Source: an uncultured Prevotellaceae bacterium
GTDB lineage: Bacteria; Bacteroidota; Bacteroidia; Bacteroidales; Muribaculaceae
Reading direction: 5' to 3'
Length of the DNA: 44,209 nt
NCBI GenBank assembly: GCA_900317835.1
Contig: ONIL01000038.1
Span: 1 to 44,209 of the forward strand
Shown piece by piece: positions 3,520 through 42,305 of the stretch. The notes beneath the pieces were generated by a model that saw only the letters and a program-made list of their open reading frames with translations, made no database searches and was not told where the DNA came from. How positions within the stretch are numbered: position 1 is the stretch's first letter; every line of letters begins with the position of its first letter. Made by a program: the position numbers and the translations under genes.

Positions 3520-3522
3520 GTC

Positions 3523-3651: not shown

Positions 3652-3682
3652 CAAAATTACAGCCATTTTTTGAACTGGCAAA
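3652..3682 (-). promoter_or_regulatory. Consensus promoter of the tRNA-Glu pair
   Basis: On the minus strand TTTG (3679-3682), 19 bases, then TAATTTTG (3652-3659). Both Bacteroidetes boxes are present, and the tRNA starts about 15 bases downstream. Confidence 0.85.
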
Positions 3683-3776
3683 TTTTTTCGGCACTTTTTT
3701 TCTCAATAACTTCAAAAATCCGCTTTTTTGACATTTTTCGGCATTTTTCTTTTCCCAGCATGATCGTGATTAAGAT

Positions 3777-3792
3777 TAATTTTGTACTTTAG
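3777..3792 (+). promoter_or_regulatory. Candidate -7 box(es) for the 110-residue gene
   Basis: TAATTTTG (3777-3784) and an overlapping TACTTTAG (3785-3792) precede the gene by about 50-60 bases. Neither has a TTTG at the usual distance. Confidence 0.4.
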
Positions 3793-3840
3793 CGCATTGT
3801 TACTAACAATTCAATTGTAATTACACATTAATCAATCATT

Positions 3841-4173
3841 ATGGCAAGTAAGAGACAAATCAAGAAAGCTATCCAGAATGCCTGTGGCGACATCGCAGGC
3901 GAGTGCATCTTTGCAGAATCCGCATTTGGCGAGGACAAGCGCGAACAGTGGGACAGCATCATCATCGACACTGCCCTGTTGCAGCAGGAAGCTGTTAACC
4001 GCGTGAACAACAGCTTCGACAAGAAGGTGAAAGATTTCGCCAACCGCATGGAGTACAACAAGGCTCGCCGTGCGTTCTTCAAGCAGTGCGAGAAGGAACT
4101 GAGCGAGTACTTCCGCAACGAGGTGAACAACATCGCCAAGCGCATGAACGAGCTCATGCCGTCAAACAAATAA
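3841..4173 (+). CDS. Conserved-looking small helical protein, function unknown
   Basis: This 110-residue soluble, strongly charged protein is predicted to be mostly helical: MASKRQIKKAIQNACGDIAG at the start, FDKKVKDFANRMEYNKARRA in the middle, and a lysine-rich end. No signal peptide or membrane segment is seen. High-GC third positions and an ATG after a promoter-containing gap argue for a real gene. The acyltransferase gene follows after 19 bases, probably in the same transcript. I do not recognise the family. Confidence 0.75.
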   Translation: MASKRQIKKAIQNACGDIAGECIFAESAFGEDKREQWDSIIIDTALLQQEAVNRVNNSFDKKVKDFANRMEYNKARRAFFKQCEKELSEYFRNEVNNIAKRMNELMPSNK

Positions 4174-4192
4174 GCATCATCGTTTCAGTTTG

Positions 4193-4738
4193 ATGAACTT
4201 TTCTGCTTGGATATTAAAGAAAGCCGGTTGGACGTTCAAGGTCAACCTGGAGATGCCTGACAAGTGCGTCATCGTCATCGCGCCGCACACCAGTAACTGG
4301 GATTTCATCCTGGGCGAACTGGGCATCCACTCGGTGGGCATGAAAGCGGGCTTCCTGATGAAGGACACATGGTTCTTCTTCCCTCTGGGCTACCTGTTCA
4401 AAGCGCTGGGAGGCATTCCCGTCAACCGTCGGCAGCACGGCAACCTCACCCAGTCGATTGTCGAGGCCTTTAACACCACACCCCGCCTAGCCATCGGTGT
4501 CACGCCTGAGGGTACCCGCAGTGCCAACCCCCATTGGCACAAGGGGGCCATCTTCATGGCCCGAGACGCGGGAGTGCCACTGGTGCTGGCCTATTTTGAC
4601 TACAAAGATCGTGTGGTGTGCATCGACCGTGAATTTGATTTGACAGACGATGCCGAGGCCGACCTGGTGCGCATCAAGCAATACTACCAGCACTTCACCG
4701 GCAAACATCCTGAAAAGTTCGTCACAGGACTAGAATAA
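4193..4738 (+). CDS. PlsC-like 1-acylglycerol-3-phosphate acyltransferase family protein
   Basis: The 181-residue protein starts at ATG 4193; an in-frame TTG sits one codon upstream. The acyltransferase signature HTSNWD (His32, Asp37) is the HX4D catalytic motif. It is followed by FPLGYLFKALGGIPVNR at about 63-79 and the EGTR motif at 106-109, both substrate-binding blocks of the LPLAT superfamily. It probably transfers an acyl chain to a glycerophosphate or a lipid-linked acceptor at the inner membrane. It is shorter than typical PlsC (about 240) and lacks a clear N-terminal transmembrane helix. This is the compact form common in Bacteroidetes. Confidence 0.85.
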   Translation: MNFSAWILKKAGWTFKVNLEMPDKCVIVIAPHTSNWDFILGELGIHSVGMKAGFLMKDTWFFFPLGYLFKALGGIPVNRRQHGNLTQSIVEAFNTTPRLAIGVTPEGTRSANPHWHKGAIFMARDAGVPLVLAYFDYKDRVVCIDREFDLTDDAEADLVRIKQYYQHFTGKHPEKFVTGLE

Positions 4739-4976: not shown

Positions 4977-5777
4977 ATGTTTTCCCGCAACCTGCGCGTC
5001 ACGCTCATCGAGGACGACATCGTCTGGGGCGACCGTGAGGCCAACTTCAAACAACTGGAGCGCAACCTGCGCAATATGCCTGATGACACTGATCTGGTCA
5101 TCCTTCCCGAGTTGTTCACCACGGGCTTCATGACAGGTGACCGCGAGCAGGCGGCTGCCGTGGCCGAGTGGAACAGTGGCGACACGCTGCACTCGTTGCG
5201 CCAGCTTGCTGCCCAGTATCATGTGGGCATCATCGGCAGTTTCCTGGCCAACACCGCAGCCCAACTCTACAACCGCGCATTCTTCATCGAACCTAACGGC
5301 GACGAGACCTACTACGACAAGCGTCACCTGTTCTCGTTCGGTGGCGAGGACAAGGTCTTCAACCACGGATTGACCGCGGCACCCATCGTGCGATTCCGCG
5401 GTTTCAACATCAAACTGGTAGTGTGCTACGACCTGCGGTTCCCCGTCTTTTGCCGCAACGTGAACAACAACTACGACGTGCTAGTGGTCATTGCCAACTG
5501 GCCCAAATCGCGTGAGAAAGTGTGGCGCACGCTGCTGGCCGCCCGCGCCATGGAGAACGAGTGCTACGTCTGTGGCGTGAACCGCTGTGGCACTGATCCG
5601 GCTGGTGTGGAGTACCCTGAAGGGTCATCACTGATCATCGACTTCAAGGGCAAAATCATCGCCCAGCGCATGACGAGCCCTGTCATCACCGCCGATCTCT
5701 CCCCCGCACAATTGGCGCAGTTCCGCGAGAAATTCCCCGCTTGGCGCGACGCCGACTCGTTCACCCTCAACATTTGA
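4977..5777 (+). CDS. Nitrilase-superfamily omega-amidase (YafV-like)
   Basis: The 266-residue carbon-nitrogen hydrolase has all three catalytic residues in their family contexts: Glu45 in LPELFTTGF, Lys115 in YYDKRHLFSFGGE, and Cys150 in VVCYDLRFPVF. The LFSFGGE and CYDLRFP contexts are those of omega-amidases, which hydrolyse alpha-ketoglutaramate or alpha-ketosuccinamate after glutamine or asparagine transamination. It is cytoplasmic, with no signal peptide. Its stop codon overlaps the TTG start of the U32 peptidase gene, so the two are translationally linked. Confidence 0.88.
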   Translation: MFSRNLRVTLIEDDIVWGDREANFKQLERNLRNMPDDTDLVILPELFTTGFMTGDREQAAAVAEWNSGDTLHSLRQLAAQYHVGIIGSFLANTAAQLYNRAFFIEPNGDETYYDKRHLFSFGGEDKVFNHGLTAAPIVRFRGFNIKLVVCYDLRFPVFCRNVNNNYDVLVVIANWPKSREKVWRTLLAARAMENECYVCGVNRCGTDPAGVEYPEGSSLIIDFKGKIIAQRMTSPVITADLSPAQLAQFREKFPAWRDADSFTLNI

Positions 5778-7609
5778 GCAAAACTATTGACATAGAACTG
5801 CTGGCGCCAGCACGTGACGCCGACATTGCCATTGCCGCCATCGACCATGGTGCCGATGCAGTGTATATGGGTGCCTCACATCACGGGGCCCGTGCCGACG
5901 CCACCAACAGCCTTGATGACGTGCGCCGCGCCTGCGACTATGCCCACCTGTTCGGCGCAAGAATCTATGTCACAGTCAACACACTGGTCTATGACGACGA
6001 GCTCGCTGAGGTCGAACGCCTCATCCACGAGCTATACCGCATCGGCGTTGATGCCCTCATTGTGCAAGACCTGGGCATCCTGCGGCTTGACCTGCCGCCC
6101 ATCGCCCTGCATGCCAGCACACAATGCGACCTGCGCACCCCTGAAAAGGCCCGCTTTCTCGAAGCCATGGGGTTTTCCCAACTCGTCATGGCTCGTGAAT
6201 TAACGCTGGACGAAATCACCGCAATCCGCTCTGCTACCCGTGTGCCGCTCGAGGCCTTTGTCCACGGAGCACTGTGCGTGAGCTACAGCGGCCGTTGCGC
6301 CATCAGCCAGGTACTGAAAGGCCGCAGTGCCAACCGCGGCGAGTGTGCCCAATTGTGCAGGATACCTTATGACCTGGTGGACGGTAAGGGCCGTGTCCTT
6401 GTCGAGGGCAAGCACCTGTTGTCGTTGCGCGACTTGTCACAACATGACCGATTGGAACAGATGATGGATGCGGGTGTCTCGTCCTTTAAGATCGAGGGGC
6501 GCCTCAAGGACATGGGATATGTCAAGAATGTGGTCGCCTATTATCGCCGCGCCATCGACAAAGTCATCGAGCGACAGCCCGAGCGCTACCGCCGCGCCTC
6601 CTTCGGTACGGTGGATTTGACCTTTGAGCCTGCGCTGGAAAAGAGTTTCAACCGTGGGTTTACCCACTATTTCCTAGATGGTCGGCGCCCCGACGACGGC
6701 ACAGCCATGGCTTCGATCGACACGCCCAAGTCACAAGGAGAGTTCTTGGGACGTGCCGTTCGCTGTAACGGCAATGCCCTGACCATCAACACCCGAACGG
6801 TTCTTGCCAATGGTGACGGACTGAGTTTTACCGATGCCAGCGGGCAATTTGCAGGAGCAAGGGTGAACCGAGTGCTTGAGGGTGGCACGGTCCTGCTGCG
6901 TGAGCGAACCGACATCCCGCGCGGCGCCCTCATCTACCGCACCGCCGACAAAGCCTTCAACGACCTCCTGGCCAAGCCTTCGGCTACACGCACTATCGCC
7001 GTGAATGCCCAATTGCGTTACACTGGCGACATGCTGTCGCTCACCCTCGATGACGAGCGCGGCAATCATGTGGTCCACACCCTACCCTGTGACCTGCAAC
7101 CAGCCGCCAAACCCCAAACCGACCGACAGCGCGCCGAACTCGCCAAACTGGGCGGCACCATCTATCGCCTGGTTGACGCACAAGTGCCTGGCGACATCTT
7201 CATCCCGGCCTCGATGCTTGCAAGACTGCGTCGTGAAGCCATCGACCTGCTTGACAGTGCCCACCGCATCACACGGCCCGTTGACAAGCGTCGCCCTGAG
7301 GACAAATCAGTACCCTACCCCGCCGACACGCTTGTTCCCGCCGATAATGTCGCCAACCGCCTTGCCGAGGCCGTTTACCGCGACCATGGCGTGACAACAA
7401 TCGAGTCGGCACTCGAAGTGGGCACAGCCGCCACCTCATCCACACCGCTGATGCACACCCGCTACTGCCTGCGTCGGCAACTCGGTGCGTGCCTCAAGGG
7501 CAAGAACGCCAATGCCCTCCCGCGCGACCTCTACCTCAAGAGCGGCTCCACCCTGCTTCAAGTCACCTGCGACTGCCGCGCTTGCGAGATGATTCTCACC
7601 CGACCATAA
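5774..7609 (+). CDS. U32-family peptidase / RlhA-like RNA hydroxylation protein
   Basis: About 611 residues from TTG 5774, which shares its last two bases with the upstream stop (TTGA). The open frame extends back to another TTG at 5741, but homologs begin with the IELLAPA segment that follows 5774. Family marks are IELLAPARD, GADAVYMG, HASTQCDL and the signature EAFVHGALCVSYSGRC. Cysteines of that type and those in RGECAQLCR fit the conserved set thought to hold an iron-sulfur cluster in RlhA/TrhP/UbiU. The long C-terminal region (about 310-611) ends with a cysteine-rich tail (CDCRACEM). Many U32 proteins act in tRNA or rRNA hydroxylation rather than proteolysis; which applies here cannot be told from sequence. 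Confidence 0.87.
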   Translation: MSKTIDIELLAPARDADIAIAAIDHGADAVYMGASHHGARADATNSLDDVRRACDYAHLFGARIYVTVNTLVYDDELAEVERLIHELYRIGVDALIVQDLGILRLDLPPIALHASTQCDLRTPEKARFLEAMGFSQLVMARELTLDEITAIRSATRVPLEAFVHGALCVSYSGRCAISQVLKGRSANRGECAQLCRIPYDLVDGKGRVLVEGKHLLSLRDLSQHDRLEQMMDAGVSSFKIEGRLKDMGYVKNVVAYYRRAIDKVIERQPERYRRASFGTVDLTFEPALEKSFNRGFTHYFLDGRRPDDGTAMASIDTPKSQGEFLGRAVRCNGNALTINTRTVLANGDGLSFTDASGQFAGARVNRVLEGGTVLLRERTDIPRGALIYRTADKAFNDLLAKPSATRTIAVNAQLRYTGDMLSLTLDDERGNHVVHTLPCDLQPAAKPQTDRQRAELAKLGGTIYRLVDAQVPGDIFIPASMLARLRREAIDLLDSAHRITRPVDKRRPEDKSVPYPADTLVPADNVANRLAEAVYRDHGVTTIESALEVGTAATSSTPLMHTRYCLRRQLGACLKGKNANALPRDLYLKSGSTLLQVTCDCRACEMILTRP

Positions 7610-31793: not shown

Positions 31794-32789
31794 ATGGCAA
31801 GAGATTATCGAATCGATTCACTCAAAGGCCTGTTGATCATCCTGGTGATTATAGGGCATGTCATCACAACACTCGATAACGTGAACTTCATCAACCACGG
31901 CGTCATGGGGCTCATCTACATCTTCCACATGCCGCTGTTCATTCTGATTTCAGGATACTTCAGCAAATCTCGCGATGAGCAAACACAAAGTTCATTTTGG
32001 AAAAACACCTGTCTTCTCTTCATTACACTTGTCATCTTTCACTTTTTAGGCTGTTTCAGATCCTATCTGTCTAATCCAAATGCACGAGCCATCTTTGATG
32101 GATTTCCATTTGGAGAAAAAATGTGGATCATATTCCCATTCGGCGAATTATGGTATATCATCAGTCTCATCTACTGGAGAATCATACTATTCTATACTCC
32201 TGAAGCGTTGCTGAAACGGCCGGCATTATACCTATCTATCGCGCTGATTGTGAGCATTCTGTGCGGATTGACTCATTTAGGGATGTTCTTGTCAATACAG
32301 CGCACCATGAATTTCTTCCTTTTCTTTCTCTTGGGTTACTATTTCAAGCATAACGCCATCAACACCAAATTGTGGTACAATAACACTCTGCAACTGTCAC
32401 TTGCACTCATATTATTGCCCATCATTTTCGTTCTATTCCCCCGATGCGGAAACTTCATGAATGGCGCCGACCATTATTCACTCATCGACATACCTGAAAA
32501 GGTCATGATTTTGACCTGTTCAATTTCGATATCGCTTTTTGTTTTCAATAACATGAAAGACGTCAAGTGGCTTCGTTCCTTTGGTCAGGACAGCTTGTTT
32601 TACTACCTGTATCACTATCTGATTATCGTTTTGGTCATTCAGCCGCTGGTTATACGGTATGGCCTGCCTTGCTACTTCCCGTTTATCCTATGCTATACTG
32701 CAATCATATTAATTATCCTGAGGCTGTTGAGCAAGGTGAGATTCTTAAGATGGCTTACCCATCCTAAGCTCCCGGCATTGAAGAGATGA
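31794..32789 (+). CDS. Acyltransferase-3 family membrane O-acetyltransferase
   Basis: 331 residues with about ten transmembrane helices. The N-terminus RIDSLKGLLIILVIIGHVI carries the conserved arginine and the histidine of the acyltransferase-3 family, followed by FHMPLFILISGYF. It resembles NolL/fucose 4-O-acetylase-like proteins that O-acetylate surface polysaccharides. It is 8 bases behind the GNAT gene and ends the operon. It is AT-richer than its neighbours, which hints at separate acquisition. Confidence 0.9.
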   Translation: MARDYRIDSLKGLLIILVIIGHVITTLDNVNFINHGVMGLIYIFHMPLFILISGYFSKSRDEQTQSSFWKNTCLLFITLVIFHFLGCFRSYLSNPNARAIFDGFPFGEKMWIIFPFGELWYIISLIYWRIILFYTPEALLKRPALYLSIALIVSILCGLTHLGMFLSIQRTMNFFLFFLLGYYFKHNAINTKLWYNNTLQLSLALILLPIIFVLFPRCGNFMNGADHYSLIDIPEKVMILTCSISISLFVFNNMKDVKWLRSFGQDSLFYYLYHYLIIVLVIQPLVIRYGLPCYFPFILCYTAIILIILRLLSKVRFLRWLTHPKLPALKR

Positions 32790-32798
32790 TGATGTGAT

Positions 32799-33284
32799 TT
32801 ACTTGAGTTGTGCGAGGGTTTTGGTGTCAGGATCGATGGCGACAATGGTGCCGTCGGGATCAAGCAGGAAAGTGTGATAGCCTTCCTCAAGACGCCAACT
32901 CTTGATGATATTGTCTTGAATATCAAGTTGAGAAGTAGAGAACTGCGAAGAGCGGTTCAAGTTATCGATAGCGACAATCTTATTGAACACATTGGCACTG
33001 CGGTCCAGATTGACCGACACATGAGTAAATTTATCATTATTCCGCGAGAGGCGGTCATAACTCATGTTCTGCAAGCGTGACTCGGCGTCGGCCGAAGTCC
33101 AGAACGTCAGCAGCACGTTCTCGCCACGGTGTAACTGCAGTGGAGACAATCCATTATTGTCATTACCAAGAACCAGGGACGGTGCCTTAAATCCAATGCG
33201 GCTGTCGGCAGGGGCCGAATAATAAGCCGAAGTGAACAACGTGAGCAGTCCCAGGATGGCGATTATCAATAATGTTTTATTCAT
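32799..33284 (-). CDS. Thioredoxin-fold protein lacking the CXXC active site
   Basis: 161 residues with an N-terminal signal or anchor (MNKTLLIIAILGLLTLFTSA). The TlpA/AhpC-like pattern is present: GFKAPSLVLGNDNN, LHRGENVLLTFWTSADAESR (61-70, where WASWCGPCR is usual), SVNLDRS, and TFLLDPDGTIVAIDPD. The active-site cysteines are absent, and I see no cysteine elsewhere. It therefore cannot act as a disulfide oxidoreductase and may be structural or ligand-binding. It is convergent with the acyltransferase gene. Its probable promoter overlaps the attachment repeat of the mobile element. Confidence 0.78.
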   Translation of the reverse strand: MNKTLLIIAILGLLTLFTSAYYSAPADSRIGFKAPSLVLGNDNNGLSPLQLHRGENVLLTFWTSADAESRLQNMSYDRLSRNNDKFTHVSVNLDRSANVFNKIVAIDNLNRSSQFSTSQLDIQDNIIKSWRLEEGYHTFLLDPDGTIVAIDPDTKTLAQLK

Positions 33285-33396
33285 TCGTTACTTAGTTTGG
33301 TTCATAATAGAGGCAGTGGATCTCATACAGGCATCCAACGCCTTTGCCGACTATCGACAATGCCCTACCAATTTCATGAGCATTGATAGGGATTGC

Positions 33397-33424
33397 AAAA
33401 GTAGTCAAAAAAAGTTATTAACAA
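33397..33424 (+). repeat. Left attachment repeat of the element
   Basis: 28 bp, identical to 37290-37317, beginning AAAAGTAGTC and ending GTTATTAACAA. Read on the minus strand it carries TACTTTTG (33396-33403), a -7 box that may serve the thioredoxin-fold gene. Confidence 0.8.
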
Positions 33425-33462
33425 CGGATTTCCGCAAAAAAAATGCGAATTTTCGCACAATT

Positions 33463-33489
33463 ACCGAACTTTCAGGCCCTTTATCGGTA
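33463..33489 (+). repeat. Integrase-flanking repeat, left copy
   Basis: 27 bases with inverted ends ACCGA...TCGGT, matching 34867-34893 at about 22 of 27 positions. The pair brackets the integrase gene. Confidence 0.55.
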
Positions 33490-33552
33490 TGTAGACATAG
33501 AAAACACATCCATTTTTGGAGCTATATAATTGTCCGATAATTGTCGAAAAAC

Positions 33553-33579
33553 ACGTTTTTGTTGCCGAATTATTGTCGC
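33553..33579 (+). repeat. Arm-type repeat, left copy
   Basis: It shares GTTGCCGAATTATTGTCGC with 37193-37218 (GTTGCCGAATTGTTGTCGC) plus an ACGTTTT start. The leader of the integrase gene contains further TTGTCG-type half sites. Confidence 0.6.
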
Positions 33580-33595
33580 AAAATTGTCAAACATT

Positions 33596-34774
33596 ATGCC
33601 TACACTCTCACTAACCGTGCTCCCGGCCAAAGCACTGAAAGATGGCCGCAACAAGGTGCGCATAGCAGTGGCGCACAACTCACAGACGCGATACATTGTG
33701 ACCGATGTGGTCATCGGCTCGCCCAGGGAATGGAAAAACGGGCAGATCGTCAGACGCGACGACGCGGCCTACCTGAACACGAAACTCAGGAAGAAATTCA
33801 ACGAGGTGCAGCAGTCCATCGACGAGGTGCCCTACCCTGAAGGGCTGTCATGCCCCGAACTCATCGAGACGATAACCGAGACACGCAGGCGGGTGTCACA
33901 CACCCTGCGCTCGGCCTTCGAGGAGATGATGGCCGTCACAGACACAAAGCCGTCCACAAACATGATATACATGTACACCTTCCGCTCAATCACCAGGTAC
34001 ATCCCTGAGTCAACAAGGGTGGCTGCTCTGACGCCGCTGGCGATAAAGCAGTACATCAAGAAGCGTACCGACATCACCCAGCCGACAATTCAACTGCACG
34101 TCACGCTGCTGTCCAGGATCATCAACTACTGCCAGCTCAACCACTACACCGACTTCCAGGTGTCCCCCGCAAAGATGGCGATGAAGTTCAAGCAGTCCGT
34201 GCGGCAGAACTGGCTCACGCCTGACCAGGTGCGGTTCATCCGTGACTATCCGAACAACCGGAAATGGTACAGGAAGTTCCGGGACCTGTTCATGCTGACG
34301 TACTATCTCGGCGGCATCAACGCCATTGACCTGATGAAGATAGACTGGCGAGGACTCACCTATATAAAATATGTACGCACGAAGACGGAAAGGGCTGCAA
34401 AGGTGAACCCGTTCGTGGAGTTTGAGATACCCGAGGAGGCATTGGCCATCATTAACCGATGGATGAGGCCAGACGGACACCTCGGCTTCTTTTCCAGGTG
34501 TCACTACACCACGAACATCTCCAAGATGTCCCGCCACTTCCGCGACGAGACCGGCATCGAGAACCTGACGTTGTATTCGGCAAGGAAATCATTTGCGCAG
34601 CATGCCTTCCAGCTGGGCATTTCGGAGTCGGTGATAGACTACATCCTGGGGCACTCGCTCAATGCCGGCAACAAGTCCACCATCTACTCATACATCAAGG
34701 TGACACCCGCCATGGCGACTGAGGCGATACGAAAAGTGTTGGATTTCATTCATGGTAACAATAATTTTGACTAA
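33596..34774 (+). CDS. Tyrosine-type site-specific integrase
   Basis: 392 residues from ATG 33596; the open frame extends to TTG 33530, but that stretch is the repeat-rich arm region. The N-terminal arm-binding part (1-90) and SAM-like core-binding part (about 100-200) precede the catalytic domain. That domain has YSARKSFAQHA (Arg330), YILGHS (His353) and a tyrosine in STIYSYI (Tyr364). The box I arginine appears replaced (TYYLGGINAIDL), as in a subgroup of Bacteroidales integrases that keep the other residues. It probably catalyses excision and integration at the 28-bp repeats. It is followed by its own terminator. Confidence 0.93.
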   Translation: MPTLSLTVLPAKALKDGRNKVRIAVAHNSQTRYIVTDVVIGSPREWKNGQIVRRDDAAYLNTKLRKKFNEVQQSIDEVPYPEGLSCPELIETITETRRRVSHTLRSAFEEMMAVTDTKPSTNMIYMYTFRSITRYIPESTRVAALTPLAIKQYIKKRTDITQPTIQLHVTLLSRIINYCQLNHYTDFQVSPAKMAMKFKQSVRQNWLTPDQVRFIRDYPNNRKWYRKFRDLFMLTYYLGGINAIDLMKIDWRGLTYIKYVRTKTERAAKVNPFVEFEIPEEALAIINRWMRPDGHLGFFSRCHYTTNISKMSRHFRDETGIENLTLYSARKSFAQHAFQLGISESVIDYILGHSLNAGNKSTIYSYIKVTPAMATEAIRKVLDFIHGNNNFD

Positions 34775-34819
34775 CTTTGTCGGACATTTATTCCATGTAG
34801 GATTAAATGTTTGACTTTT

Positions 34820-34860
34820 GTGGCGGTCGGCTCGTGAGAGTGTGCCGCCACTGTTTTTTT
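34820..34860 (+). terminator. Terminator of the integrase gene
   Basis: A GTGGCGG/CCGCCAC stem (34820-34826 and 34845-34851) followed by TGTTTTTTT. Confidence 0.85.
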
Positions 34861-34866
34861 CATATC

Positions 34867-34893
34867 ACCGAACTTTTGGCCACGTTATCGGTA
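34867..34893 (+). repeat. Integrase-flanking repeat, right copy
   Basis: Partner of 33463-33489 in the same orientation, located just behind the integrase terminator. Confidence 0.55.
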
Positions 34894-34935
34894 ATATATA
34901 ATGTAACGCTTATAGTGCTGTTGAGAATGCGTTGC

Positions 34936-34966
34936 GCCCATGCTTCGCTTCGAGGCGTGGGCTTTT
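34936..34966 (+). terminator. Second hairpin terminator behind the integrase
   Basis: A GCCCATGC/GCGTGGGC stem followed by TTTTC. It would back up the first terminator. Confidence 0.6.
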
Positions 34967-35001
34967 CTGTGTGATGGAAATTAACTTCCTCCACAACAAA
35001 A

Positions 35002-35029
35002 GCGCCCCTGCCATTGAAGACAGGGACGC
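35002..35029 (-). terminator. Terminator of the HicB-like gene
   Basis: A GCGCCCCTG/CAGGGACGC stem; on the minus strand it is followed by TTTTGTTG. Confidence 0.7.
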
Positions 35030-35054
35030 AAGAGCTCTAATAAAAATGAATTGA

Positions 35055-35492
35055 TTAGATATAGGACACGGCGGGCTTGTCAATCATTTTCAAGCCGGTG
35101 CCCAGGTCATGTGCAAGGCGTTCCAACCCTGCATTTATTTTGTCAATCTGCTTCTTCTGCGGTTCACGGATGGCAGACACATACTGGCGCAACACAGACG
35201 GATTGATGCCGATGTATTTGGCCGTTGCCGTCACGTCTAAGGGATAGTAGTCAAAGAATGACCCAACATCAAGTCGGAAGTCAAATTCAATTTCCTCGGG
35301 GAAATCTTGGCCTGCCTCAGCAGCCATCACACGGGACTCCTGTGCGGCCACCTTGATGTCTTCCATCGCTTCACGAGCCGTACTACCATAGCCTGCAAGA
35401 CCAAAGTTACCGATATTCTCAGTGGCAAAGCACGAGAAGTTGCCCTTACCTTTGCCACGCTCCACAATAGCCAATAAAGTCAGTTTATCCAT
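35055..35492 (-). CDS. HicB-like protein with C-terminal helix-turn-helix
   Basis: 145 residues. The N-terminal part (about 1-70) has the HicB partial RNase-H-like pattern: AIVERGKGKGNFSCFATENI, GYGSTAREAMEDIKVAAQES. The C-terminal part (about 80-130) has a helix-turn-helix: PLDVTATAKYIGINPSVLRQ, YVSAIREPQKKQIDKI. HicB antitoxins usually pair with a HicA toxin; none is beside it, so it is probably a stand-alone regulator, as is common in Bacteroidales elements. Its promoter contains the palindrome shared with the XRE region. Confidence 0.82.
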   Translation of the reverse strand: MDKLTLLAIVERGKGKGNFSCFATENIGNFGLAGYGSTAREAMEDIKVAAQESRVMAAEAGQDFPEEIEFDFRLDVGSFFDYYPLDVTATAKYIGINPSVLRQYVSAIREPQKKQIDKINAGLERLAHDLGTGLKMIDKPAVSYI

Positions 35493-35585
35493 TGTTACAT
35501 CTATTATATTCTTTTAGAAAAGAGCCCATATACCATGCCACAAGTGAATTTCGGGACAAAAGAGCTCTTTTGTCTTATCGACATT

Positions 35586-35604
35586 GCAAATGTAACACAT
35601 TTGT
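35586..35604. promoter_or_regulatory. Palindromic operator, copy 1
   Basis: GCAAATGTAACACATTTGT: inverted CAAATG/CATTTG arms around 5 bases. It matches 36777-36795 at 16 of 19 positions. On the minus strand it contains TACATTTG, the -7 box of the HicB-like gene, so a protein bound here would block that promoter. Confidence 0.7.
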
Positions 35605-35618
35605 TACAACTGACCAAA
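35587..35618 (-). promoter_or_regulatory. Consensus promoter of the HicB-like gene
   Basis: On the minus strand TTTG (35615-35618), 20 bases, TACATTTG (35587-35594). An extra TGTAACA/TGTTACA inverted repeat (35591-35608) lies between the boxes. Confidence 0.75.
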
Positions 35619-35893
35619 TATTATCACGAAAAAATTAACAAAAAAGTTACTTTTTACGGTTTTCGGTGGTGACTGGGGACAAAAAAGATGGCTGGTCTCA
35701 CGACTGGCCACCTTTCGGTCCTAAAAACTAAACCCCTCCTTTCGATTAGAGAATAGTTAATGAAACAACTGTCTAACACTAAATTCCTGTATCTTTACCA
35801 CGCCCCCGACAAACGGCTGGGCCTTGTCGGCAGGCATCTTTACCACACCTCCTCGCACTCCTATTGCAAAGCGGCTGTCCTTAAGGCATGATT
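35619..35893. other. Intergenic stretch of the element
   Basis: I cannot support a gene here. The 106-residue minus-strand frame over it crosses the promoter of the small membrane protein and has no domain. An inverted repeat CCGACAA/TTGTCGG (35806-35812 and 35824-35830) and two similar CTTTACCAC segments around it could be protein-binding or transfer sites. Confidence 0.35.
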
Positions 35894-35926
35894 TTTGCAC
35901 TATATAAAAAAAAAGAATTATATTTG
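35894..35926 (+). promoter_or_regulatory. Promoter of the small two-helix membrane protein
   Basis: TTTG (35894-35897), 21 bases, TATATTTG (35919-35926); ATG 35952 follows 25 bases later. Confidence 0.7.
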
Positions 35927-35951
35927 CAAATCGATAAACTCTCCTATTAAA

Positions 35952-36170
35952 ATGAAAGACTATAGCGACTTCAAAGACTCTTTCAATGAGTGGTGGTATA
36001 GTATCACTCTTATTGTTTGTCTTGTTTCTTTTATTCTGCTCATAGTCTTTCCTATAATTGGAAATGATGATGGGCAAATCATTTCAGCAATAATTTGCGG
36101 TATTTCATTTGGACTTCATTGTTCAAGTCCACTTGATTCAGGCGATAAACCACTTAGCCGTTGGCCTTAA
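35952..36170 (+). CDS. Small two-helix membrane protein of the element
   Basis: 72 residues from ATG 35952. A short polar start (MKDYSDFKDSFNEWW) is followed by a strong hydrophobic helix (ITLIVCLVSFILLIVFPII) and a second weaker one (IISAIICGISFGLHC), then a polar tail. A consensus promoter right before it argues that it is real. The 3' end overlaps the end of the small basic gene on the other strand by 17 bases. No family recognised; a superinfection, toxin or immunity role is possible but only a guess. Confidence 0.6.
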   Translation: MKDYSDFKDSFNEWWYSITLIVCLVSFILLIVFPIIGNDDGQIISAIICGISFGLHCSSPLDSGDKPLSRWP

Positions 36171-36315
36171 TCTTTCCTGAGTTTATCATTTTCTCGAAAC
36201 GTTTTCGCGCCTCTTCCTTGCCGACAACCTCGGTCTTCGGCTTCCTTGGACCATCCCTGGGCATGGGCGGCACTGCTCTTGTGCTACTGCGGTGGCTGCC
36301 ATTGCGGCAAGCCAT
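36154..36315 (-). CDS. Small basic protein of the element
   Basis: 53 residues, reading MACRNGSHRSSTRAVPPMPR and ending RKRFEKMINSGKIKANG, followed by TAA. Codon use is GC-rich at third positions, like the coiled-coil gene just upstream (gap 26 bases), so the two are likely cotranscribed. It is highly basic, with a proline-rich first half and a helical second half; it may bind nucleic acid. It converges on and overlaps the end of the two-helix gene. Family unknown. Confidence 0.6.
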   Translation of the reverse strand: MACRNGSHRSSTRAVPPMPRDGPRKPKTEVVGKEEARKRFEKMINSGKIKANG

Positions 36316-36341
36316 GAAGTTGACCAAACTTCGGAATGTGC

Positions 36342-36809
36342 TTAGAGGTTCTTACCCAGTTTCGTGAGGACCATGTCGAGGTCCATATCGTTGGCGGTCA
36401 TCAACGCCTCGTACATCTCGGCCACGCAGATGTTCTTGCGCTTGCAGAGCTCTTCAATGGCCTTCTTGAGGATGTCGCGCTGGTTCATGTACTCGATGTA
36501 CTGCTTGCAGTTCCAGTCGAGGGAACTCTCGGCGGTCTTGAGCTTCTCAATGAGTTCGGTGTTCTGAGCCTTCAGCTGCTCGTTCTCGGCCTTGAGGGTG
36601 TCGAAGTACTCGGTCATCGACATCTGCTCGTTCTTGTTCTCGTCCTGTGAGGTGGTCTGCTCGGCGACCTGTGCCTCGTTGATTTTCTTCTCTTCCTTGT
36701 CTCTAACTTTTTGATTGAAAATGTTTTGTAATAAGAGAATTTGCTTTATATTTGCAGTTGATATTGTTTGTATGTTGCAAATGTAAAGCATTTGCTTAAA
36801 AAGTTTCAA
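36342..36809 (-). CDS. Coiled-coil protein of the element, start uncertain
   Basis: Up to 155 residues. The dependable coding part begins around RDKEEKKINEAQVAEQTT and continues through a coiled coil (EYFDTLKAENEQLKAQNTEL, IEKLKTAESSL) to a helical C-terminus (VAEMYEALMTANDMDLDMVL). In-frame ATGs are at 36809, 36791 and 36620. The first two lie at or upstream of a minus-strand TACATTTG box, and the third cuts off well-biased codons. Either a rare start (ATT or GTT) near 36710-36730 is used, or the promoter lies further upstream. Function unknown. Confidence 0.65.
   Translation of the reverse strand: MKLFKQMLYICNIQTISTANIKQILLLQNIFNQKVRDKEEKKINEAQVAEQTTSQDENKNEQMSMTEYFDTLKAENEQLKAQNTELIEKLKTAESSLDWNCKQYIEYMNQRDILKKAIEELCKRKNICVAEMYEALMTANDMDLDMVLTKLGKNL
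36725..36754 (+). promoter_or_regulatory. Promoter of the XRE-type regulator
   Basis: TTTG (36725-36728), 18 bases, TATATTTG (36747-36754). The operator palindrome lies 22 bases downstream of the -7 box. Confidence 0.65.
36777..36795. promoter_or_regulatory. Palindromic operator, copy 2
   Basis: GCAAATGTAAAGCATTTGC: inverted GCAAATG/CATTTGC arms around 5 bases, between the divergent coiled-coil and XRE genes. Like copy 1 it contains TACATTTG on the minus strand. Confidence 0.7.
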
Positions 36810-36847
36810 TGTTTAGCTTTTGTTGACATTTCAAAAGCACTTAGACC

Positions 36848-37165
36848 ATGGTAAATAGGATTTCAAAACTTATCGAGAGTACGGGTCTCAACCCTACTTC
36901 ATTCGCCGCAAAGATTGGCGTTCAACAGATGACGCTTTGGGGACAACTCAACGGCAAGCGCAAACTCAGCCTCGACTCAGTACTGGCTATTCTCAACAGT
37001 TATCCTGAACTTTCAGCCGAATGGCTCATGAGGGGAACCGGTGACATGACGAAGGGCAACGACGCACAGGAGAAACGCCTCGACAACCTCGTGGACGTGA
37101 TCTCCATGCAGCAGGAGACCATCCGCAACCTGCAGGACAAAATTAAACAGTTACAAAACCAATAA
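36848..37165 (+). CDS. XRE-type helix-turn-helix regulator
   Basis: 105 residues. The helix-turn-helix at about 5-55 reads ISKLIESTGLNPTSFAAKIG, VQQMTLWGQLNGKRKLSLDS. The motif SAEWLMRGTGDM is typical of Bacteroidales phage-repressor-like proteins. A C-terminal coiled coil (ISMQQETIRNLQDKIKQLQ) should give dimers or oligomers. It is a good candidate for the protein that binds the CAAATG-N5-CATTTG palindromes, one of which sits in its own leader. It is the last gene before the right end of the element. Confidence 0.85.
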   Translation: MVNRISKLIESTGLNPTSFAAKIGVQQMTLWGQLNGKRKLSLDSVLAILNSYPELSAEWLMRGTGDMTKGNDAQEKRLDNLVDVISMQQETIRNLQDKIKQLQNQ

Positions 37166-37192
37166 TTCACTTAATTATGAAAAAGACATCTG

Positions 37193-37218
37193 ACGTTTTG
37201 TTGCCGAATTGTTGTCGC
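37193..37218 (+). repeat. Arm-type repeat, right copy
   Basis: Partner of 33553-33579 in the same orientation: one base shorter and one mismatch. It lies 72 bases inside the right attachment repeat. Confidence 0.6.
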
Positions 37219-37253
37219 GGCAATTTTACAGCAGCTACAACAACAAACGAAAA

Positions 37254-37273
37254 AACCTGCCTCTCAGCAGGTT
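37254..37273 (-). terminator. Inward-facing terminator at the right end
   Basis: An AACCTGC/GCAGGTT stem with loop CTCTCA; on the minus strand TTTTTTCG follows. No minus-strand gene ends here, so it may shield the element from outside transcription. Confidence 0.6.
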
Positions 37274-37289
37274 GTGATAGTTGATGACA

Positions 37290-37317
37290 AAAAGTAGTCA
37301 AAAAAAGTTATTAACAA
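37290..37317 (+). repeat. Right attachment repeat of the element
   Basis: 28 bp, identical to 33397-33424 and in the same orientation. Confidence 0.8.
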
Positions 37318-37510
37318 GTGATTTTGGGGATATTTTTAATCTTTTGACATTATTTTAATAGAATTTTCAGCCCAAACAGACCCCAAACGGCGCCATTATC
37401 ACGATAAGGAAATGATGGGTGGCGACATAATTTTTCATGAATTCTTAGCAAGTATTCATAAAATATTTCTATCTTTGCGACACAAAACAATATAACCCAT
37501 TTTAGTTGCT
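37318..37510 (+). other. Leader and promoter region of the lipoprotein gene
   Basis: AT-rich and without a gene. It contains TATCTTTG (37470-37477), the likely -7 box of the lipoprotein gene, 33 bases before ATG 37511. Confidence 0.5.
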
Positions 37511-37972
37511 ATGAAAAAAATCCATAAGTTATCTTTTCTGTTCGCATGTCTGATCATGTCGATGACAGCATTCATGTCGTGTGACTTTGATGGTCCTGCC
37601 GATCCTGACCACCCTTTGTTTGTCGAATATACTATATCTGCAAGTTTTGATCAATTCACAGGTCCTGAGCAGCTACAAATCGATGTCAAGAAGTGGATTG
37701 ATGAGAATCAAATAGCCTATGTCAGGGAGATCAACTATAATTCCAGTGATCCATCAGTATATGAAAAGGACGATGCTGAAGCAATCGAGAAATATAACGC
37801 ATATAAGGTCAAGTTCAACAATTACTTGAATGACCTCAAGCAGAAGCTGAATTCAGGCACTTATGGCAATGTCTCAAATGTGAACATTCCTTTCTATGTA
37901 TTTGCAAAGCGTACACAAGGCGATAACCGGTACTTCAGAAATGAGAGTATTCCATTTGTCTATACAAAGTAA
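37511..37972 (+). CDS. Small lipoprotein of unknown function
   Basis: 153 residues. The signal peptide MKKIHKLSFLFACLIMSM and lipobox TAFMSC predict a lipid-anchored protein. The next residues DFDGPADPDH are acidic, a context that in Bacteroidetes favours surface export of lipoproteins. The mature part is acidic and helical (QLQIDVKKWIDENQIAYVRE, YNAYKVKFNNYLNDLKQKL) and ends in a strand-rich tail. No family recognised. It stands alone just outside the integrative element and may be a chromosomal gene. Confidence 0.78.
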   Translation: MKKIHKLSFLFACLIMSMTAFMSCDFDGPADPDHPLFVEYTISASFDQFTGPEQLQIDVKKWIDENQIAYVREINYNSSDPSVYEKDDAEAIEKYNAYKVKFNNYLNDLKQKLNSGTYGNVSNVNIPFYVFAKRTQGDNRYFRNESIPFVYTK

Positions 37973-38074
37973 TCATGCTCTTATTGAGAGCGAATCACAT
38001 TAATCGATATCCATGTGACGTGCGCCGGTAATCTAAACCAACGCACGTCGTTTGTAAAAAACAACTTATTCATT

Positions 38075-38524
38075 ATGGCACGACTCATCATTAGCAACGA
38101 CTGGTGGACCGCTCCGGCAGAGTCAGACAATGGCCGACTTATCATGGTAACGGGAAGGCGAGGCCTAAACAATGTCATTGCGACAGGACATTACCAATAC
38201 CGTGTGGAGGTCACCTGGCCCTATCAAGGCGACGAAAAGGGATTGCCGACATATAACGACAGCAAGTTGATGGAGGAAGTCACCGATGCGCTCAACCAAT
38301 GTTTTGACCGTGATCCCGTTGCCGTGATGACGGGCATCTATACGGGTGATGACCAGCGCAACTGGGTATTCTATACCCGCAGCCTGCACATCTTCCAGCG
38401 CAAACTCAACGAAGCACTGGCACCCTTCCCCGCCCTACCCTTGCAATTTGAGGCCGAGGAAGATCCCGAATGGCAGGAGTACAGCGAGATGTGCCAGTGT
38501 GAAGTCGCCGAGGGCGAAGATTAA
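38075..38524 (+). CDS. DUF695-like protein
   Basis: 149 residues from ATG 38075; a TTG far upstream is not credible. The pattern YRVEVTWPYQGDEKGLPTY, LMEEVTDALNQCF, PVAVMTGIYTGDDQRNWVFY, TRSLHIFQRKLNEAL is that of DUF695. The family's function is unknown. It ends with the unusual tail EMCQCEVAEGED, which also occurs in a gene fragment at 43593-43688. Cytoplasmic; convergent with the large secreted-protein gene. Confidence 0.72.
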   Translation: MARLIISNDWWTAPAESDNGRLIMVTGRRGLNNVIATGHYQYRVEVTWPYQGDEKGLPTYNDSKLMEEVTDALNQCFDRDPVAVMTGIYTGDDQRNWVFYTRSLHIFQRKLNEALAPFPALPLQFEAEEDPEWQEYSEMCQCEVAEGED

Positions 38525-38540
38525 CACACCCTGCAAGAAA

Positions 38541-40328
38541 CTATTTCCTAAAGACTTTCCTAACGGTGCCGTCACTCATCTTGATGATGTTGATGCCTTG
38601 CTGCATGCCCTGTTGCTGACGACCCATGATGTCGTAGTAGCCAACGGCAACGGCATCCTTGTCAGCGAGCTGCTCGTCAACATCCAATTGGATGATTTGA
38701 TTAAAGGTGTAGTCAAGGTAAGCACCGGGGAACTCAAAGCGAACAACAGCATTGCGGTTATGGATGCCATGCACATTAGTGGCATCCTGAGCGACAACAG
38801 TTGCATTCACCAGGCCGGTGAACTCGCCGTTCTCCATCACATCGGTCAACTCAATGCTCAACCAATCGGGGACATCCCCGCCATCGCAGGTAATGTACCA
38901 AGCGTCATCGGCACTGGGAGTATATGACCAGAACTCGATGCTGCGGCAAGTGTGTGAACCGAAGATCTTCTCCATGAGTCCGCCCCACTTGGGGAAGCAG
39001 TAGTAACCATCCTCCTCGTCATGCTTGAAGGTCAGGTAGGGCAACTCGGTGCTCAGGAAAATGGAGAGACCTGTCTTCATGGCGCCACTTGTGAAGAAGT
39101 TGTTCAGACCGACCCATTCATAATGGTCGAAGTTACCATCCTCATCACGGACGCCATATTTGAGGTAAGCCAACTCACCGAAACCCTCATCAACCATGTT
39201 ATCAGTACTAATCATAGCAGAGAAATCGGTCAGATTCTCCATCTCAGGAGCGTTATAACCATCGATAACCACGAGGATCGGACAATCAATAGTCGGCATC
39301 ACATCAAACTCCAAACCATCATCTTCATCAAAGAGGGAGAAGAAAATCAAGTCACCCGTCTCATTGGCAGTAGTTGGCGTCAGTGTTGCACGACCCATAG
39401 CAATCAATTCACCGGGCTCCTCGGGAAGAACAGCCTCGTCTTCGTCCATGTAGGCAGGAATCTCATCCAGCTTGTAAACCTTGCAGTACATGTCAACATC
39501 AGCAGCTACCTCAAGGATTGCGCAGTCAACAACAACCTGGTTCAGCAGATAGGGATGCTCGGGCTTCTCAAAAGCCTGTGCAATACCGTCGATGAGTGCG
39601 CCGCCGTTGGTCCCAGCGTTCTTACCGAACCACCAGCCTTCTTCGTTGTTGCCGTAGGGCTTAGCACCACTATAATAAGTCATGGGACAGTGCTCGCTAC
39701 CATTGTGGCTACCGTAGCTGAAGGTCTTACTTGACTTGAGAAGATCTTTTCCCCACGCCTCTATGGAGCTGGTTATTGATAGAATTCTTGGGTTATATGT
39801 AGGAGAAATTACACCTTCTTCTGGTTGATATACTACGCCCTTACTCGGCTTATCGGCCCAATAATCACCGACATAGAAAATGGGAAGATCGGCATCTTCA
39901 ACGCCCCAACGATACTTCAAGTCTTCACCCTCGATAATTGTATCACCAACTTCCCACCAACAGGGTACATCATCTTCAAACCCTTCGGCAAAACCGTTAA
40001 AAGTGTAATAAGAATAGGGTTTTACCGTATAATAGGGCGAATAATACATGCCTGCATAAACTCCATTCTCAACGACAACACTTGCAGGGAAAGCGCCAGC
40101 AGGGCGGCGATACCACACATTGACATCGCCCTCGGCATGCTGCGGAGCACGGGCGACAGCAGTGCCGGGCTCCCGCATCTGCATTTCCTGCATTTTAACT
40201 TGTGGCCGCGCCTTAATCATGTTCATCGATTGTTGAGGAACCTCCACGGCCATATCACTTTTCACTTGGGCATTCACGCACATCATTATGAGCGATGCCA
40301 TCACAACGAGTAAAGATTTCTTGTTCAT
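38541..40328 (-). CDS. Large secreted protein with sorting-type C-terminus, paralog A
   Basis: 595 residues. The signal peptide is MNKKSLLVVMASLIMMCVNA. A conserved N-terminal stretch ARPQVKMQEMQMREPGTAVA is shared with paralog B. Blocks such as YLLNQVVVDCAILEVAADVD, CPILVVIDGYNAPEMENLTD and LSIFLSTELPYLTF suggest a beta-sandwich ectodomain. The last 35 residues (VGYYDIMGRQQQGMQ, QGINIIKMSDGTVRKVFRK) look like a type IX secretion C-terminal signal: a strand, a glycine turn, then a basic end. Likely surface-attached or released. The promoter is consensus. Function unknown. Confidence 0.8.
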   Translation of the reverse strand: MNKKSLLVVMASLIMMCVNAQVKSDMAVEVPQQSMNMIKARPQVKMQEMQMREPGTAVARAPQHAEGDVNVWYRRPAGAFPASVVVENGVYAGMYYSPYYTVKPYSYYTFNGFAEGFEDDVPCWWEVGDTIIEGEDLKYRWGVEDADLPIFYVGDYWADKPSKGVVYQPEEGVISPTYNPRILSITSSIEAWGKDLLKSSKTFSYGSHNGSEHCPMTYYSGAKPYGNNEEGWWFGKNAGTNGGALIDGIAQAFEKPEHPYLLNQVVVDCAILEVAADVDMYCKVYKLDEIPAYMDEDEAVLPEEPGELIAMGRATLTPTTANETGDLIFFSLFDEDDGLEFDVMPTIDCPILVVIDGYNAPEMENLTDFSAMISTDNMVDEGFGELAYLKYGVRDEDGNFDHYEWVGLNNFFTSGAMKTGLSIFLSTELPYLTFKHDEEDGYYCFPKWGGLMEKIFGSHTCRSIEFWSYTPSADDAWYITCDGGDVPDWLSIELTDVMENGEFTGLVNATVVAQDATNVHGIHNRNAVVRFEFPGAYLDYTFNQIIQLDVDEQLADKDAVAVGYYDIMGRQQQGMQQGINIIKMSDGTVRKVFRK

Positions 40329-40541: not shown

Positions 40542-42305
40542 TTACCTCTTGAGGACTTTCCTGGCGCTGCCATCGCTCATCTTGACGATGTTGACACCCG
40601 GCTGCATGTCTTGCAGTTGACGTCCCATCAAGTCATAAAGACCAACGACAACGGCCTCCTTGCTGTCAAGTTGCTCAGCGACACCGTTGGTCACGCCCTG
40701 TGTGAAGATATAATCAATGTAAGCGCCCGGGTATTCAAAGCGGACAACGGCCATGCGGTAAGAAACACCTGCCGGCAGGGGCTCGGCAACGACTTGTGCT
40801 GTCACCAAGCCGATGAATTCACCATCCTCAATTTCGTCGGTCAGTTCAATACTCAACCAGTCAGGGACATCCTCGCCATCGCAGCTCATCACCCATGCAC
40901 CATCTTCACTCGGCAGCCATGAGAAGAACTCGATGCTACGATAGGTCATTTCACCGATGACTTTTTCCATCAGACCACCCTCCTTGGGGAACTCATAGTA
41001 ACCATCCTCGTTATAGTCGTTAAAGACCAGATAAGGCAAGTCGGTGCTCAAGAAGATGGTGAAACCGGTCTTCATGTGCGATCCGGTGAAGAAATTCTCA
41101 AGCCCACGCCAGACGTAGTTCACACCTCCATTCTCATCAGGGTAACCAAATTTGAGGTAAGCCAACTCACCGAAGCCATCATCCTGATCGGTCGCCTGAC
41201 TGATCATTGCCGTGAAATCGGTGAGATTATCCATTTCAGAATCGTTATAACCATCAATTACCACAAGGATAGCGTCGTCAATCGTCGGTGAAATCTGATA
41301 TTCCTGCCCATTCTCCTCATCATAGAAGTTGAAGGTCACCAAGCCGCCAGTCTCTTCATAGGTCTTACCGGTGACCATTGCGCGGCCAACAGCGATAAGC
41401 TCGCCTGGCTCATCAGGGATAATTGCTGAAGTCTCTTCGAGATAGTCAGGAATCTCGTCCAACTTGTATACACTGCAATGCATCTCCACCGTGCTACCAG
41501 GGGCCACGGTGAGAACGCCACAGAAAAGAACGACCTGGTTAAGCAGATAAGGATGTTCAGGCTTCTCAAAGGCTTGGGCAATACCGTCAATGAAATAGGA
41601 AGGCGAGGCCATGTTGTGATAACCATTCTTGCCGAACCACCAGCCATATCTATTGTCCTTGAAAGGCTCAGCACCATAGAAATAAGTTACCAAATAATTT
41701 GAGTTGGATGCCGAGTAGAACGATTTACTCGACTTGATCATGTCATAGCCGAAAGCATCCATTGTATTGGCCATCGAAAGCATCATGGGCTCTGCATTGG
41801 TGCCGGCACGCAAACCATGGCCAGGAATTGCAGCAGTGTAGTCATCAGCGTGGAAAATGGGAGGAGAGGCTATCTCAAACCCCCAACTGGAGACCAGATC
41901 TTTTCCGCCAACGTAACCATCAGTAGTCACCCACCAACAGGAAGCATCGGGTCCAAGCCCCTCGGCAAAGCCATTAAAGGTATATTCACTGAAAGGCTTC
42001 ACGGCGAAATAGGGAGATGGGAAAGAGCCAATCATCACGCCATCTTCAACGGCAAAGCTGGCAGGGAAAGCTCCAGCGGGACGGCGAAACCACACATCGA
42101 CAGCGCCTTCTTGCTGCCGTGGAGCCCTGGCAACAGCAGTACCCGGCTCACGCATCTTCATCTCCTGCACCTTTGCCTGCGGTCGTGCAGTGGTCAACTC
42201 CAGTGACTGCTCGGATACAGCCCCTGCCTTAGCATTTCTCACTTGGGCACTTGCACTCAAGACCATGAGTGATGCCACAATCGTTAAAAAAGAAAACTTG
42301 TTCAT
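40542..42305 (-). CDS. Large secreted protein with sorting-type C-terminus, paralog B
   Basis: 587 residues, colinear with paralog A: signal peptide MNKFSFLTIVASLMVLSASA, N-terminal ARPQAKVQEMKMREPGTAVA, shared GIAQAFEKPEHPYLLNQVV and ILVVIDGYN blocks, and the C-terminal sorting-like end VVGLYDLMGRQLQDMQPGVN, IVKMSDGSARKVLKR. Divergence is concentrated in the loop-like parts of the ectodomain. No promoter is evident in the 87-base gap to the LRR-dockerin gene upstream, so it is probably transcribed with that gene. Confidence 0.8.
   Translation of the reverse strand: MNKFSFLTIVASLMVLSASAQVRNAKAGAVSEQSLELTTARPQAKVQEMKMREPGTAVARAPRQQEGAVDVWFRRPAGAFPASFAVEDGVMIGSFPSPYFAVKPFSEYTFNGFAEGLGPDASCWWVTTDGYVGGKDLVSSWGFEIASPPIFHADDYTAAIPGHGLRAGTNAEPMMLSMANTMDAFGYDMIKSSKSFYSASNSNYLVTYFYGAEPFKDNRYGWWFGKNGYHNMASPSYFIDGIAQAFEKPEHPYLLNQVVLFCGVLTVAPGSTVEMHCSVYKLDEIPDYLEETSAIIPDEPGELIAVGRAMVTGKTYEETGGLVTFNFYDEENGQEYQISPTIDDAILVVIDGYNDSEMDNLTDFTAMISQATDQDDGFGELAYLKFGYPDENGGVNYVWRGLENFFTGSHMKTGFTIFLSTDLPYLVFNDYNEDGYYEFPKEGGLMEKVIGEMTYRSIEFFSWLPSEDGAWVMSCDGEDVPDWLSIELTDEIEDGEFIGLVTAQVVAEPLPAGVSYRMAVVRFEYPGAYIDYIFTQGVTNGVAEQLDSKEAVVVGLYDLMGRQLQDMQPGVNIVKMSDGSARKVLKR

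Follow-up and report, generated by a model that had tools for sequence, protein, structure and literature searches.

The window, here the whole 44,209-nt stretch of contig ONIL01000038.1 to whose positions all coordinates refer, contains a 3.9-kb element of a Prevotella-like rumen bacterium, which is bounded by two copies of a 28-nt direct repeat and carries a tyrosine integrase, a regulator named HicB-like, a small membrane protein, a coiled-coil gene and an XRE phage repressor-like protein (Table 1). The integrase, placed just inside the left repeat by the first-pass annotation, is confirmed by its match to the PHROG integrase family phrog_1 (E 3e-24); its Pfam Phage_integrase score of 26.3 bits lies just below the curated cutoff of 27.1, and TTG 33530 is an alternative start. 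Damage to the integrase was considered, as its motif LGGIN has no Arg at a position that in tyrosine integrases is presumably the usual site of the catalytic Arg, and was rejected, since Arg is found there in 0 of 34 other aligned integrases (37 loci given, less one not in the alignment, the window itself and one gapped at the motif).

Table 1. Features of the element and of its host flanks (positions in the window)
Feature	Position	Strand	Basis or remark
Host thioredoxin-like gene, left flank	32799..33284	-	Pfam Thioredoxin_8 E 2.8e-5, below its cutoff; adjoins the empty site in 23 relatives
Promoter-like TTG, 18 nt, TACTTTTG	33396..33424	-	Pattern scan; overlaps the attL core; putative function
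attL core, 28 nt	33397..33424	+	Outer half as in empty attB, inner half as in phage attP
23-nt repeat, left end	33557..33579	+	Pairs with 37196-37218 (96%)
Tyrosine integrase, 392 aa	33596..34774	+	PHROG and Pfam searches; just inside attL
HicB-like regulator, 145 aa	35055..35492	-	6 IMG/VR relatives at 54-87%; also in phage contigs
Phage intergenic stretch	35575..35818		84% identical to the RUG548 prophage
Possible 3' stub of phage gene beside lysin (DUF6808 in phages)	35781..35873	-	Alignment and Pfam
Cassette at deletion joint	35881..36203	+	99% identical to G057:C12 over 306 nt
72-aa membrane protein, probably two-helix	35952..36170 (ORF)	+	Inside the cassette
57-aa frame over the joint	36154..36327	-	Spans the deletion joint
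Coiled-coil gene	36342..36782	-	Without the start codon used by two phage homologues
XRE phage repressor-like protein, 105 aa	36848..37165	+	PHROG repressor families, best E 4.6e-8
23-nt repeat, second copy, right end	37196..37218	+	Repeat search
attR core, 28 nt	37290..37317	+	Repeat search; half-site comparison
Host gene, 153 aa, right flank	37511..37972	+	Adjoins the empty site in relatives, 36-46% identity
Host DUF695 gene, right flank	38075..38524	+	Pfam DUF695 E 2.1e-31; comparison with relatives

The two 28-nt cores are identical, as had been claimed, with a start-to-start distance of 3893 nt and an imperfect extension to 35 nt (94% identical), and the element's own genome contains exactly two copies at up to 3 mismatches, the reversed control pattern giving 0 matches. 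The flanking host genes are 0.64-1.02 kb apart in 23 relatives, as compared with 4.79 kb in the window, and at the empty site a copy of the core with at most 4 mismatches in 31 is present in 14 of the 23 relatives and none in 5. The four half-sites all lie as expected from integration: when the outer flanks are compared with four empty sites, the matching side scores 12-29 and 10-19 and the wrong side at most 4, and the inner flanks give 48/60 against the corresponding side of the phage attP, as compared with at most 5 elsewhere. Judged from these comparisons, the 28-bp repeats are att sites, in agreement with the site-specific integrative element initially proposed. A common promoter-associated repeat with no empty site in relatives had been named as the finding that would speak against this; the overlap of the repeat with a promoter-like sequence is real, but relatives do have empty sites and the repeat is uncommon, with only the two genome copies, so that it is the attB core and in itself gives no reason to reject integration. 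The analysis also supplies clean att sites for one group of tailed, temperate phages whose hosts are Prevotella-like rumen bacteria. The 23-nt repeats at the two ends are possible arm sites of the integrase, and a similar 17-nt pair is present at both ends of a second remnant (G029).

The promoter-like sequence sits 111 nt before the ATG of the thioredoxin-like gene and was found with a consensus taken from passages of PMC8748976 and PMC4747536. In 14 of the 23 relatives the promoter-like attB core can be recognised at the site, and the sequence, putatively a promoter of the flanking host gene, survives integration. If it is a promoter, the gene is not silenced when the phage inserts at such a target. 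CTnDOT presumably also has a promoter-like target. A general sigma-70 promoter scan finds 8 sites, where 7.0 are expected, and a terminator scan finds 8, where 4.1 are expected, both left out of the interpretation; an Rfam scan of 32700-38600 has no match with an E of 1 or less.

The XRE protein is 88-90% identical to two phage copies. For the 145-aa protein, first called HicB-like, profile searches give 0 HicB family matches and a search of PDB sequences gives no match of any kind below E 0.02, and what is left of the name is a weak fold similarity. When its predicted model (mean pLDDT 88.8) is compared with the PDB by Foldseek, HicB antitoxins are found at ranks 3, 4 and 6 (E 0.02-0.04, TM 0.32-0.36), with two RNase H1 chains ranking above them and 0 matches at E ≤0.001, which weakly supports a HicB-like fold. 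The coiled-coil gene does not have the start codon of two phage homologues and is read as damaged; its weak PADLOC match, the only one given by the element, is to LmuB (E 0.001) and was taken as chance. The searches of six element ORFs give 0 matches to transfer, replication or capsid families, as the earlier reading had also found.

The gene order of the element recurs at the ends of much larger phages. The RUG548 prophage (uncultured Prevotellaceae bacterium, ONQS01000014.1, G040:C29) lies in the same attB and shares with the element the integrase (94% identical), the intergenic stretch and the slot of the HicB-like gene, the HicB-like proteins being only ~35% identical, whereas head, tail, packaging and lysis genes, which the element does not have, extend there over at least 30 kb and include terminase, portal, protease and tape-measure-like genes. 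This prophage reaches the contig end, so its right end at attB is outside the assembled sequence. In a single-contig genome (G060) the same gene order extends over 60.3 kb at another site, where the att sites are not fixed because the direct-repeat search gives only 12-13-nt candidates, and it is found in large part in two further genomes (G017 and G038). In a metagenomic phage contig the att core links the XRE end to the integrase, and the XRE gene is 0.8-1.2 kb before the integrase in four phage or metagenomic contigs. IMGVR_UViG_3300032030_001794, 3300028591_003260 and 3300028888_000299 resemble the element in having the XRE gene (68-88%) just before the integrase (60-94%), the first of them also sharing the coiled-coil gene, but they differ from it in their free phage order and replication genes. 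The Bacteroides phages BF1-TP2 (PQ571263) and BS-TP3 (PQ571276) have an integrase of the same type (~32-33% identical), with a repressor before the integrase in BF1-TP2 and lysis genes facing the integrase in BS-TP3; unlike the element, these are phages of 57-68 kb with full annotation. The comparison of the element DNA with the phage collection gives 0 matches.

Between the two ends, the homology with the phages stops near 35818 at the DNA level and restarts at 36256. The possible gene stub at the left joint is a weak match, its alignment with G040 scoring 51 (at most 49 in 500 shuffles) and that with L080 43 (reached in 4 of 500 shuffles); the gene next to the lysin is not a spanin by annotation, as Pfam assigns it to DUF6808. 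The cassette at the joint has a promoter-like match at 35895-35926 (pattern scan). Its 72-aa membrane protein is not counted as a phage gene, because none of the 34 viral-contig stretches that matched its pattern was confirmed, and the neighbour of this gene in G057:C12, taken by eye for a tape-measure fragment, has no match in Pfam. The 'small basic protein' of the first-pass annotation is a 57-aa frame that crosses the deletion joint; only its residues 1-26 match phage contigs (67-70%), the remainder diverging at the joint.

The element is thus collinear with both ends of far larger temperate phages, of which one occupies the same attB; their interior is absent from it. Very probably it is an internally deleted temperate prophage with both ends kept and the interior gone, and an ordinary dead prophage is most likely, as opposed to a new kind of minimal mobile element. 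What characterizes a defective prophage is found here: flanking att repeats, a site that is empty in relatives, an integrase and ends common to a larger phage (the same-site prophage, the 60.3-kb gene order and the phage contigs), and no structural, packaging or replication genes in profile searches of the element ORFs. A tailed phage, ~60 kb in the one relative measured, integrated by means of its own tyrosine integrase into the core overlapping the promoter-like sequence of the thioredoxin-like gene, as the comparisons show; the attL and attR cores are identical as a result, and the putative promoter stays in place. Nearly all of the phage between the lysis end and the regulatory end was lost, as the collinearity shows, probably at a later time, and the 0.3-kb membrane-protein cassette came to occupy the joint. 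Left over are attL, the integrase gene, the HicB-like regulator, what may be a gene stub, the cassette, the coiled-coil gene in its damaged form, the XRE repressor and attR.

The satellite-type element without counterpart that had been suggested is not supported, given this collinearity and the missing interior, and the candidate 'minimal element' is explained and removed from the list of such candidates. Only a slim chance is given to a phage-derived satellite, whose own integrase would keep the short element mobile while a related helper phage with the same ends packages it. The intact integrase frame, att cores and 23-nt end repeats, and the related phages in relatives and viral contigs, are what such a satellite would have, but the coiled-coil gene is damaged, and family searches of the element ORFs find no packaging (helper redirection), capsid-remodelling or replication family, the small genes of unknown function being possible carriers. 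Nor is a conserved short form seen: the search of 101 genus genomes gives no second short integrase-bearing copy (13 other close integrase matches, 5 of them ambiguous, with no phage gene on the stretch examined). The only other short remnant, that in G029, keeps the XRE gene and the neighbouring lipoprotein gene and only ~15 integrase codons. A search of the whole genome of the window, run without a positive control, gives 0 matches to the portal and tape-measure proteins encoded by the RUG548 prophage, so that no helper of this lineage is seen there.

This last search, with the same reservation, also finds the portal and tape-measure genes on no other contig, which speaks against a metagenome-derived contig in which assembly had collapsed a longer prophage. 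Such an artefact is very improbable: the draft genome comprises 65 contigs and the relatives are metagenome assemblies, but the joint contains a foreign 0.3-kb cassette and no simple repeat. An integrase with small regulators between att repeats would also fit an integrative or mobilizable element that is not a phage and has just the integrase in common with phages; the XRE gene, the coiled-coil gene, the integrase and 35575-35818 are, however, all collinear with phage ends, the searches give 0 relaxase family matches, and the same-site prophage makes this reading very unlikely, its chance being minute.

As an internally deleted prophage, the element should make no particles, because it has no head, tail or packaging gene. 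Given a working integrase and a supply of directionality factor, the element may still excise, and immunity to related phages through the XRE repressor is likewise possible. Both the integrase frame and the XRE frame are open, with a dN/dS of 0.088 between the integrases of the element and of the RUG548 prophage and of 0.138 or less for XRE; these low values could mean that both genes are still in use, or may be no more than a trace of the phage lineage prior to the deletion. 'Grounded' or defective prophages, as treated in parts of PMC6379469, resemble the element in that phage function is lost and immunity possibly retained; those parts stress mutation of the att site or recombinase, whereas the element keeps its att cores and integrase frame and has lost the interior. 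It is conceivable, but unlikely, that the integration ends and the repressor are retained because they still pay, by blocking related phages and by being excised and moved when a related phage gives the directionality factor, and that deletion derivatives of this phage lineage are tiny immunity islands. If so, the G029 remnant is a second case in which the repressor end is retained.

A deleted prophage, an already known kind of thing, is the best explanation for the 3.9-kb element; the first-pass annotation, which had proposed a minimal satellite-type integrative element with no described counterpart, was correct in its observations, and its interpretation holds in part. The pair of 28-nt repeats is real, having no further copy at up to three mismatches in the 3.07-Mb genome, and the ORFs named at that stage are present as frames. 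The integrase call agrees with a phrog_1 match (E 3e-24; the Pfam score is slightly below the cutoff, 26.3 versus 27.1 bits), and the XRE call with matches to phage repressor families (best E 4.6e-8). The designation HicB-like is tentative, its basis being weak fold similarity only, and the 57-aa frame of the "small basic protein" crosses the deletion joint.

Integration between the thioredoxin-like and DUF695 genes is established by the empty sites of relatives, which had been proposed as a check. The two genes adjoin each other there, and their spacing, when measured from the start of the thioredoxin-like gene to the start of the DUF695 match, is 640-1018 nt (23 loci in 23 genomes, duplicate copies of one site being removed beforehand and G040, whose piece has the first gene without the second, being left out) versus 4791 nt in the window. 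The relatives that have a named record are assemblies from rumen, labelled uncultured Prevotellaceae bacterium. A repeat-like core is found no more than 400 nt upstream of the thioredoxin-like gene, with at most 4 mismatches in 31 in 14 of the 23 relatives and with 5-8 in four; in the other five, none is found at up to 9 mismatches. A 22-nt core at no more than one mismatch occurs in 9 of 100 relatives, in eight at this site and in the ninth (G099) not beside the thioredoxin-like gene.

The four half-sites behave as required for integration when their 60-nt flanks are scored against four empty sites and the phage attP. For the outer left flank the scores are 12-29 against the left side of the empty sites, and 4 or lower against the right side or attP; for the outer right flank they are 10-19 against the right side and no higher than 4 elsewhere. 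Both inner flanks reach 48 against the corresponding side of the att core carried by a metagenomic phage contig of 13.3 kb, where the core joins the XRE end to the integrase, and no more than 5 elsewhere. The more distant contig G031:C70 has this joint too, with a core of lower similarity. XRE lies 0.8-1.2 kb ahead of the integrase in four contigs from phages or metagenomes (G031:C70, L101, L136 and L137), which is the order expected of the free form.

Larger related phages are found in the genus of the window's genome (101 genomes searched). At the site occupied in the window, RUG548 (contig G040:C29) carries a prophage whose right end is past the contig limit, with an integrase 94% identical to that of the window and, in the same slot, a HicB-like gene of about 35% identity. 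In the single-contig genome G060 a related phage gene order extends over 60.3 kb at another site (integrase, tail, tape measure, head, portal, terminase, ParB, helicase, SSB, exonuclease, Sak-like protein, XRE and secreted protein), and G017 and G038 have large portions of this order. Beyond the window itself, the 101 genomes give 13 close integrase matches (E 1e-60 or better), of which four share a contig with portal and terminase genes (G040, G060, G017, G038) and four adjoin lysis-region and/or replication genes (G031:C70, G031:C66, G116, G126). The other five (G142, G008, G026, G050, G016), with no such match on the fetched stretch, may or may not belong to phages: these stretches are short, and the first matched gene in G060 is about 13 kb away from the integrase.

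On the left side of the deletion joint, the DNA-level match to phage is followed by a weak match to the 3' end of the phages' DUF6808 gene, the neighbour of the lysin. The alignment of this stub with G040 scores 51, versus at most 49 in 500 shuffles, and that with G031:C70 scores 43, which is equalled or exceeded in 4 of 500. Between the phage-like ends is a 306-nt block, 99% identical to a stretch of G057:C12, where it lies among other genes; it has its own promoter-like sequence and the 72-aa membrane protein. With unrelated flanks in the two genomes, this identity suggests that a tiny gene cassette was recently transferred. The coiled-coil gene is without the start codon that two phage homologues use. 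The window's genome gives no match to the RUG548 portal and tape-measure proteins, in a search without a positive control whose queries matched other genomes separately, and only distant matches (best 29%) to the helicase of contig L101.

Features of the element, its surroundings and related phages
Feature	Sequence	Coordinates	Match or size
Left 28-nt repeat	window	33397-33424	
Integrase LGGIN motif	window	34300-34340	
End of DNA-level phage match, left side	window	~35818	
End of DUF6808 match	window	~35873	
306-nt block	window	35885-36190	
Start of phage match, right side	window	36256	
Right 28-nt repeat	window	37290-37317	
ORF, minus strand	window	38541-40328	595 aa
ORF, minus strand	window	40542-42305	587 aa
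Copy of 306-nt block	L091 (G057:C12)	6955-7259	
Second tyrosine recombinase	L080 (G031:C70)	3357-4217	
Reduced remnant	L094 (G029:C3)	5529-6872	
Terminase	RUG548 prophage		TIGR01547, 121.2 bits (cutoff 105.05)
Portal	RUG548 prophage		phrog_12, E 5.6e-28
Head protease	RUG548 prophage		phrog_80
Tape-measure-like protein	RUG548 prophage		weak, E 5.8e-6

It is possible that the integrase is active in recombination, since its frame is open and its dN/dS is 0.088 versus G040; this value may reflect only the time of the phage lineage that preceded the deletion. A directionality factor is not identified. Integrases of this group have LGGIN at a place where Arg is the usual residue in tyrosine recombinases, and Arg is found in the motif in none of 34 other aligned integrases. 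Seven XRE homologues are nearly invariant in their C-terminal stretch and differ in the HTH part, in agreement with a phage repressor of changing specificity, which may confer immunity. According to passages of PMC6379469, lysogens carrying grounded prophages retain immunity. Passages of PMC12629997 describe prophage inactivation via integration and excision genes, a route different from the one here.

The left repeat has on its minus strand TTG, 18 nt and TACTTTTG, located 111 nt ahead of the thioredoxin-like gene's ATG and in agreement with the consensus given for Bacteroidales by passages of PMC8748976 and PMC4747536. Both strands of the window together have 27 matches to this pattern, compared with an average of 2.35 over 100 mononucleotide shuffles. 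The att core overlaps a promoter-like site, which may function as the promoter of the thioredoxin-like gene.

At another site, G029:C3 has a second, more reduced remnant of the same phage group, in which about 15 integrase codons are followed by XRE and a lipoprotein gene, with a 17-nt repeat at both ends; in G011:C2 two integrase pieces are kept. The 16.5-kb contig G031:C70, assigned to the genome bin of a relative, shows the XRE-integrase joint of a free phage and therefore could represent either a phage or an excised form that entered the assembly. Its second tyrosine recombinase, with homologues in G017:C65, G031:C66 and G040:C29, is next to tail or receptor genes and perhaps has a role in tail-gene inversion. 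The two tabulated minus-strand ORFs of the window are adjoining paralogues, 56% identical.
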